64,000 nucleotides of DNA, from contig JAHDFY010000002.1 of NCBI GenBank assembly GCA_020627925.1, positions 124,001 to 188,000 of the forward strand, given 5' to 3'. A program made the position numbers and the translations under genes. Within the stretch, counting starts at the first letter, position 1. Each line of letters begins with the position of its first letter. A model generated the notes under the pieces. That model saw only the letters and a program-made list of their open reading frames with translations. It was not told the origin of the DNA and did not search any database. Below, in pieces: positions 23,558 to 27,015 of the stretch. Source of the stretch: a bacterium. Its GTDB lineage: Bacteria; Patescibacteriota; Gracilibacteria; Absconditabacterales; Absconditicoccaceae.

Positions 23558-24316
23558 ATGAACAAAAAAATATTATGGATATTCTTGCTGATTGTTTGTT
23601 TTGGCTTATTATTTTTTGTCAAAAAGTATGGTCTTGATAAATTAAAAGAGCCTTGTAGTTTGGGTGAATGTCCTCCTTATTGATCGGAACTACAAAATGT
23701 GCAATATCTTACTGAAGAAGAAGCAATACTATCATTTGTTAAAAATTATTTCTTTCTTAGAAATTGAATATATCTCCAAAAAATAAAGGAAAGTCAGCTT
23801 TTTGAGGAGCTATACCAAAGCAAAGAAGAATGAAAACAGATTTTTTCTAGCATCAAAGATGAGGTTGCCTTCGCTCTTACTAATGATTTTTGGTATACTG
23901 AATATACGACTACTGTCGATCTTGTTGATACACAAATAGTGGATTGAAACATTGTTGTAACTATTAATGAGTTTACTGAAATGTTAGATAATTATAATCA
24001 AAAAAATTCACATACAATGGAGCATATTTTTGTTCTCAAAGAAACTATTTTTTGAAATTTTGTTATAGCTAATCTTGTAGCAAAAGACTCTGTATATGAT
24101 TATTGGATGAATAAAGATTCTATAGGAGAAAAAGATATTGATTTTACTTCAAAAGAGTTTCTTCAATTTCGTGAAAAAATCCTTTGATGAGTAAGTGAGT
24201 TTCCAGAATCTTACTCTGGAGCAGCTATAGAAGATGTGATAAAAATAGAATACATACATTTTCTCAATGGTATGTCATCATTGGTAGATGGTAATGGGGA
24301 ATTACTTGTTGAGTAA
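23558..24316 (+). CDS. Membrane-anchored protein, paralogue of the 27.6 kb protein
   Basis: 252 aa. Signal anchor at about 4-21 (ILWIFLLIVCFGLLFFVKK). Residues 70-180 look like a mixed alpha/beta domain. The C-terminal 60 residues contain IDFTSKEFLQFREKIL, FPESYSG and VIKIEYIHFLNGMSSL, a pattern repeated in the shorter protein at 27607-27984. Eight TGA glycines. No known family. Preceded by a palindrome (AACCAAAC/GTTTTGGTT followed by T) 20 bases before the ATG, which could attenuate transcription. Confidence 0.65.
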
Positions 24317-24348
24317 GGAGTGTGATTTTATTTATTGACTTGTCATTA

Positions 24349-24771
24349 ATGTTTCCATTTCAGAGTGATGTCATAACAAATACGTGAACTTTTGAGCTTG
24401 GACAAGATCGAGAAGTTCCCATTCCATAATTTTTTGTTATTGGTGCAGTAGATAAATCAAAACGTACTATAAATGATTTTTCTGATAAGGAAGCTAGAGA
24501 ACTTATTTTGCTTATAAAAAAAGCTCGTGGGTGAATGAAAAATGTTTTGGGAATAAAAGACGTCTATATTTTTCAAAATGAAGATACAGATCATGGGTTT
24601 CATGTGCGAATGTTTCCTAGATTTGATCGAATGGAGCAATTTGGTAGAAAAGTAGAATCTATTCGTCCAATAATGAATTATGCAAAACAAAATATGATGA
24701 ACCAGTCTAATATCTCTCAGATGAGAAAATATGTTGAAAAAATGATTCTATTTCGAAACCAAAAAAAATAA
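24349..24771 (+). pseudogene. HIT-family protein gene interrupted by TAA at a glycine site
   Basis: A 140-codon frame with one stop at codon 27. The sequence reads MFPFQSDVITNTGTFELG ... EVPIP, then TAA, then FFVIGAVDKSKRTINDFSDK ... FQNEDTDHGFHVRMFPRF. This matches HIT-type nucleotide hydrolases, where the segment is normally VPI-G-FFVI and HGFHV is the His-triad region. The expected residue at the stop is Gly, and a Gly TGA codon becomes TAA by one G-to-A change. A downstream ATG (24535) would give only the C-terminal 78 residues. Either a fresh pseudogene or a sequencing error. Confidence 0.7.
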
Positions 24772-24807
24772 TTATATCTCCCATGAATTTTATTTTAATG
24801 AAGAAAA

Positions 24808-24846
24808 ACAAAAAATCCTCTTGCTTCATGCAGGAGGATTTTTTAT
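24808..24846 (+). terminator. Intrinsic terminator after the HIT gene
   Basis: AAATCCTC / GAGGATTT stem extended by GC/GC, followed by TTTTTT. Confidence 0.8.
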
Positions 24847-24860
24847 AATTCTTGTAGTTG

Positions 24861-24970
24861 ATAAGAGATAGTCGCCAATTACTCTTGATTATATTTGCAA
24901 GCTGAATACAATCATATTCGCAAGCAACCCAACCAAGTCTGGCGACTGTCTAACGGGTTGCTTTTTTTGT
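24861..24970 (+). ncRNA. Candidate structured RNA with two interlocked stems and a terminator
   Basis: Two long stems cross each other. ATAGTCGCCA (24868-24877) pairs with TGGCGACTGT (24940-24949). AAGCAACCC (24922-24930), lying in the loop of the first, pairs with GGGTTGCTT (24955-24963), lying outside it, and is followed by T7. The two can form a pseudoknot or be alternative structures, as in attenuators. Between them is an imperfect direct repeat ATATTTGCAAGC / ATATTCGCAAGC. No open frame fills the interval. The next gene (lepA) is on the opposite strand, so this would be an independent small RNA. Not matched to a known RNA family by eye. Confidence 0.5.
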
Positions 24971-25011: not shown

Positions 25012-27015
25012 TTAATTTTCTCCTCTCTGCACCATCTTTATGAATACGTCAGAGGGTACATTAACGCTTCCCATTGCTTTCATACGTTTTTTTCCTTCTT
25101 TTTGCTTTTTGAGAAGTTTCTTTTTACGTGAAATATCTCCTCCATAGCATTTTGCGATAACGTCCTTACGCATTGCTGGGATTGTTTCACGGGCAATCAT
25201 TTTTGATCAAATTCCTGCTTGGATTGGTACCGGAAACATGTGTCTTGGAATCAATCACTTGAGTCTTTCGGTGATGTCTTTACCTACATGATAAGCTTTG
25301 TCTCTGTGGATAATAAGACTAAAGGCTTCAATCACTTCTCCATTGATAAAGATATCAAGTTTTACCAATTCAGACATTTCGTATTTTTTGAAATCATAGT
25401 TCATCGTTGCATATCCTTTGGTTGATGATTTGAGCCTATCATAAAAATCAATGATAATTTCACCCATAGGCATTGAGTATTTCCATACCACTCTCGTCTT
25501 ATCCAAGTAGTCCATACTTTTTAATTGCCCTCTATATTCTTGCGTAAGTGTCATAATTGCTCCTGCATATTCTTCTGGTCAGACAATTTCCACCTCAGCC
25601 ATTGGTTCAAATATTTTTTCTGCATCACCCTTGGTGATCATATCTGCACCTGATCTTACCAAAAGCCATGGTTTAAGCTCTTCTTTAAATTTTTCTGCAA
25701 TTTTGTCATCAGTGTTTTGTTCTATGAATTCTTTTTGTTCGGGAGTAAGTTTTTGTGTGAAATCAGTAATAACGTGAATATAAAGACCTGACTTAACCAA
25801 CTCCACAACGTTAGAGCCGTCTTTTATTTTCTGATTTGTAAAATTTTTTGCTCTTACCAAATACATCACCGTCGGTGTCGTAAAAATGGTTTCCATATCA
25901 AATTCCCTAGAAAGCCTTTCTTTGATAATATCCATATGGAGCATTCACAAAAAACCGCATCTAAACCCGACTCCTAGGGCTGCCGAATTTTCGTGGCTGT
26001 ACTCTACGGCACTGTCATTGATAACAAGTTTCCCAAAACTTTCTTTGAGTTTGTCGTACTCAGAGGTATCCAAAGGATAAACACCTGCGTAGACATAAGG
26101 TTTGGCCTTAGCAAACCCATCAACCACAAAAGACTTGAGAGAATCGTAATTCCCGCGTCTTACCTCATTGAGTTGTAGGTTTTCATGTTCGCCTTTGGCA
26201 GTAGCAACCATTGTGTCCCCAATTTTGGCATCTCTTACCGATTTAAGACCAGTCACAATATAACCAATTTGACCGGCAGTAAGCTTTTTGTCCTTTTTAT
26301 AAGTTGGATCAACATAGCCAACCTCTGGAGGCGTGATCGTTGTCTCTGAGTGAACTAGATGTAAATTCGTTCCTGGCGTAATCTCTCATTCAATCACTTT
26401 GACATAGTTTACCACTCCTTTGTATTTGTCGTAGACTGAATCAAAAATAAGAGCTTTGGCTGCCAGTTGTTGTGTGGGTTCAATTGTTGGCGCAGGGATT
26501 CTGTCGATGATCGCATCCAAAACCATTTCTACATTTTCACCAGTCTTTGCTGAAATTCCAATGATTTCGCTTTGATCAATACCAATGGTATTCTCTATTT
26601 CCTCACCAACCCTTTGGGGATCTGCAGCAGGAAGATCTATTTTGTTGAGTACAGGAATAATCTCTAGTCATTCTTCCATCGCCATATATAAGGTACTAAG
26701 CGTTTGCGCTTGAATCCCTTGAGATGCATCAACAAGTAAAATTACTCCTTCTACCGCAGAGAGGGATCTCGATACTTCATATTGAAAATCTGCGTGGCCT
26801 GGCGTATCAATAAGATTGAATTCGTGTCCTTTCCATTGCATACGTGCTGGAGTCATTTTGATGGTAATACCTCTTTCTTGTTCCAAATCCATCGTATCCA
26901 ACATTTGTGAATTATCCGTTCTGTGTACTGTCTCAGTAATTTCTAACATACGATCAGCAAGAGTTGATTTACCGTGATCAATATGTGCTATGATACAAAA
27001 ATTTCTAATATTCAT
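25012..27015 (-). CDS. lepA: Elongation factor 4 (LepA) with internal insertion
   Basis: 667 aa; typical LepA is about 600. Ribosome-bound GTPase. G1 [10 protein letters not shown]2 region ERGITI, G3 DTPGHADF, G4 NKIDLP, G5 [10 protein letters not shown]. The GFLGMLHMDII motif (Gly357) and the C-terminal basic CTD ([22 protein letters not shown]) are intact. Between residues about 395 and 460 there is an extra, charged helical insert ([18 protein letters not shown]...) not found in standard LepA. A TATACT hexamer lies 11 bases before the ATG. Few TGA codons are used compared with neighbours, all at plausible glycines. Confidence 0.97.

Follow-up and report, generated by a model that had tools for sequence, protein, structure and literature searches.

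A HIT-fold gene interrupted by TAA at a glycine column in an Absconditabacterales genome with recoded TGA and CGA/CGG codons

The window analysed here, a stretch of 64,000 nucleotides, corresponds to contig positions 124001–188000 of a 1.27 Mb genome (10 contigs, 96% complete, GC 34%). On its forward strand an interrupted HIT-fold gene was located at 24340..24771, delimited by the reading of TGA as glycine and CGA/CGG as tryptophan, by its homologues and by the fold of the family (see below). Translation probably starts at TTG 24340, judging from the N-terminus MSLMFPF... as compared with M..KILFP... in relatives, with ATG 24349 as the alternative, and the gene ends with a TAA at 24769–24771. 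The frame and its translation confirm that it holds only one other TAA or TAG, the premature TAA at 24427..24429 (codon 27 counted from ATG 24349). The first-pass annotation had placed this stop in the context VPI-G-FFVI; it does replace the expected glycine, but a second proline had been omitted, and the local translation reads V-P-I-P-stop-F-F-V-I. Downstream of the premature TAA, 113 codons are open (GC 34%), and all 15 post-stop columns that are conserved in at least 97% of the homologues are retained in the window copy. Both the open frame and the conservation after the TAA exceed chance. Upstream, a gene without Pfam match (23558–24316) lies on the same strand, 23 bases from the HIT gene. 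Two inverted repeats (24805–24845 and 24920–24965), each followed by a T run and terminator-like by eye, separate the HIT gene from lepA, which runs convergently (25012–27015, minus strand).

The frame contains two in-frame TGA codons, read as glycine (24385..24387 and 24532..24534), and four CGA codons, which are tryptophan under the full code. Three of the latter occupy conserved tryptophan positions in the alignment, namely those of QDWEVP (24409..24411), of FH(L/V)W adjoining the retained His of the HIT motif (24607..24609) and of WM(E) (24628..24630). For a genome-wide view of the code, the genome was aligned with two relatives from the same family. TGA faces glycine in 1852 of 2923 aligned positions, and tryptophan is faced by CGA in 234 of 545 and by CGG in 16 of 36, the tryptophan counts being partly circular as the relatives were translated by the same rule. 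An independent check is provided by the three CGA codons of the HIT gene, which sit on tryptophans encoded by TGG in non-recoded homologues. The UCA tRNA bears a Gly-type acceptor end (G1:C72, C2:G71, G3:C70, U73), following the criteria of PMC8629427, the work in which Shulgina and Eddy described TGA = Gly and CGA/CGG = Trp in Absconditabacteria. RF2 was not found in the genome, where its profile only recovers the RF1 locus, below cut-off. The code of this genome is TGA = Gly plus CGA/CGG = Trp, which we take to be NCBI table 37; table 25, with TGA = Gly only, was rejected in its favour because CGA falls on conserved tryptophans. The earlier reading of TGA as glycine thus agrees with the glycine alignments, the UCA tRNA and the missing RF2, but was incomplete with respect to CGA/CGG. 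A tRNA-Trp (CCA) was not found in the 96% complete assembly. A split tRNA-Trp prediction was discarded, as it lies inside a coding frame and is without an Rfam intron match. A UCG tRNA, labelled Arg, may read CGA/CGG as tryptophan.

The window protein itself gave no Pfam or NCBIfam match, and three of five tested homologues matched PF01230 with weak scores (best E 4.8e-4). For L043, an intact homologue, the AlphaFold2 model (pLDDT 92.6, pTM 0.86) returned HIT proteins as top Foldseek matches (best E 9.8e-6, prob 1.00), among them the Ap4A phosphorylase Rv2613c (3ano, 3wo5), whose fold is shared with the model. Based on this model, the family is assigned to the HIT fold, in line with the initial identification of a HIT gene. 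In 6af2, the GH(L)(V)VP strand aligns with the GFF(I/V) strand of the subfamily, and its H-(V)-H-(V)-(V)PR motif with (F)H(L)W(I)FPR. The full histidine triad HxHxH is absent in the subfamily, where only the middle His is conserved within the motif (H/N)-x-FH-(L/V/F)-W-x-FPR. As far as activity can be extrapolated from the fold, the enzyme would probably belong to the Ap4A-processing type of nucleotide-phosphate hydrolases or phosphorylases.

The homologue search covered 49 family and 353 class genomes. The gene is present in five of the 353 class genomes besides that of the window; no close relative of the window gene was found in either set, the nearest homologue being 51% identical, and no homologue was found in viral contigs. 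One candidate, L003, was rejected as a homologue. Members of the gene family turn up here and there in Patescibacteria, DPANN archaea and Ignavibacteriota, and their tree is unresolved, a pattern like that of a mobile accessory gene. Among 43 homologues, the column of the premature stop holds Gly in 34, Ala in seven, Ser in one and a gap in one, i.e. glycine in 34 of the 42 with a residue, as had been anticipated; none of the other homologues has a stop at this codon. TGA is used in this column by L032 and L043, Gracilibacteria relatives with in-frame TGA-glycines, and also by L007, a class relative with in-frame TGA-glycines whose own copy is broken. Conversely, L034, the only homologue from the same family, has Ala (GCA), and L030, which is without in-frame TGA and of uncertain code, has Gly (GGC).

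The proposed history of TGA to TAA therefore stands as the simplest one, with the last sense codon deduced rather than seen and with the alanine of L034 speaking against it. Since a single transition turns TGA into TAA, and the step from GGA to TGA is silent in this code, a glycine TGA appears the likeliest last sense codon. We consider it improbable that a real nonsense mutation started from another codon, such as Ser TCA or one derived from Ala. The GCA of L034, the serine of one distant homologue and the long branch of the window gene, whose placement in the tree is unresolved, would allow for it, and in view of that branch the gene may stem from a donor that used another codon in this column. 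Still, Ala GCA to TAA requires two changes, the family consensus is glycine, and three relatives that have in-frame TGA-glycines use TGA here.

The premature TAA should be a real stop in translation. RF1, scoring above the profile cut-off, is the only release factor found in the genome; TAA is the usual terminator (75% of 523 surveyed gene ends, with 390 TAA and 133 TAG); and a standard tRNA scan of the genome detected no UUA or suppressor tRNA. Internal stops were surveyed in 526 regions with 177,138 aligned codons of the genome, compared with relatives; the genome was read in stretches, and coverage was partial for G005 and towards the end of G012. The survey returned 29 TAA/TAG, all of which, upon inspection of the rows, lie before true gene starts, in gaps or at poorly aligned ends. 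Among the aligned codons there is no convincing case of a well-aligned conserved stretch broken by TAA or TAG, which argues against both general TAA readthrough and frequent assembly errors. Among the class-wide matches listed for the standard HIT family, none that has an in-frame TGA also has TAA or TAG, and the few non-TGA matches with one TAA or TAG probably show the gene end.

These data bear on the notion that the TAA is leaky and occasional readthrough supplies a low-level, regulated functional protein from a living gene of this RF1-only genome. The high post-stop conservation would agree with such a scenario, and PMC7918605 reports bacterial in-frame stops with a dN/dS below 1. However, the conservation is accounted for equally well by a recent origin of the stop, the codon is not a stop in any other homologue, no suppressor tRNA is seen, TAA is the main stop, and conserved genes are free of internal stops. 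We regard readthrough as very improbable. As all 15 near-invariant columns after the stop are kept, the sequence suggests that the stop is either recent or an error, or that selection downstream of it has yet to relax.

An error of sequencing, consensus or strain mixture in this metagenome assembly, hiding an intact gene, is the most serious competitor, albeit the less probable reading. It would explain why the rest of the frame is open and conserved, and two other homologues, L047 and L048, carry error-like single-base indels in short runs. On the other hand, no comparable internal stop exists in the surveyed codons, so that such errors are rare here, and a random error would have to fall, within a dispensable gene, on one of the few sites where it yields a stop, whereas nonsense in such a gene is to be expected anyway.

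That the gene is dispensable is suggested by its patchy presence and by repeated breakage elsewhere, which make its loss look tolerable; the genome also has two further standard HIT genes without internal TAA or TAG. L025 is interrupted by TAG at an invariant Gln, L037 by TAG at a conserved Trp and L045 by TAG at a Glu/Asp column, and L007 combines a TAA at the same Gln as in L025 with a large deletion. In L047 and L048, the indels, one an insertion and the other a deletion of a single base, fall at PIP-GFF. When the break in the window is counted as well, five of the seven lie within residues 22–31 (P = 0.002 if uniform, in a post hoc test). A mutational bias may suffice for this clustering, as two of the breaks affect a Gln codon one transition from a stop and two affect short runs, and some of the breaks in other homologues may themselves be errors. 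A programmed frameshift at PIP-GFF, as suggested by L047 and L048, was rejected because most homologues are unbroken and the two indels differ. Comparison of the TAG-bearing L037 with its near relative L022 gave a pN/pS of 0.36, from only 21 differences, and most other close pairs gave 0.11–0.29. The simplest reading of these sequences is that the gene is dispensable and has been lost time and again, along whatever route each local code provides.

In summary, the locus is best explained, with reasonable though not full confidence, as a recently inactivated accessory HIT-fold gene in which a glycine codon became TAA. The glycine that starts the central HIT strand, most likely encoded by TGA, would have been mutated via one transition; RF1 would then terminate translation after about 29 residues, ahead of the active-site region, and the enzyme would not be made.

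The first-pass annotation had gone further and viewed recoded glycines as a hot spot for nonsense, with this TAA as a snapshot of the cost of the code. Neither view was borne out. Routes to stop were counted over 182,137 homology-supported codons and compared with a standard-code equivalent, in which TGA-Gly was rendered as GGA and CGA/CGG-Trp as TGG. TGA accounts for 24.5% of glycine codons; it contributes 25% of all transition routes to stop, as opposed to 64% for CAA/CAG (Gln). Under code 37 there are 12,206 transition and 52,124 transversion routes, compared with 11,779 and 71,514 in the equivalent. As the total does not exceed that of the equivalent, recoding shifts nonsense routes and adds none, which agrees with the case made in PMC3161013 that premature termination is reduced when there are fewer stop codons. 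Breaks also occur in non-recoded homologues. Across the whole genome, TGA is nonetheless rarer at conserved glycines (23.1% vs 27.3%, p = 1.6e-7), and its share of glycines is 16–20% in genes of at least 50% identity and 27–28% at 20–50%. This depletion would fit some cost of TGA, be it nonsense risk, slower decoding or an effect of expression level, which are inseparable here.

If real, the mutation exemplifies a route to pseudogenisation found only where TGA is a sense codon, with a synonymous GGA to TGA change followed by a TGA to TAA transition; in the standard code this nonsense route does not exist, TGA already being a stop. Since nonsense mutations to TGA also disappear with recoding, a single case does not show a greater nonsense load of the recoded code. 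The window gene is most likely an ordinary broken gene rather than proof of a costly altered code.

In comparison with known systems, the code of the genome shows no difference from NCBI code 37 of the Absconditabacterales (PMC8629427), with the same TGA = Gly and CGA/CGG = Trp assignments and RF2 absent. Relative to the HIT superfamily (PF01230), the subfamily deviates by its weak Pfam score and its triad, in which the first position is mostly Gly, Asn or His and the third Trp, and the window copy by its interruption. As in bacterial nonsense pseudogenes, the gene is accessory and its frame intact but for a single premature stop; the difference is that the codon lost here was probably a recoded TGA glycine.
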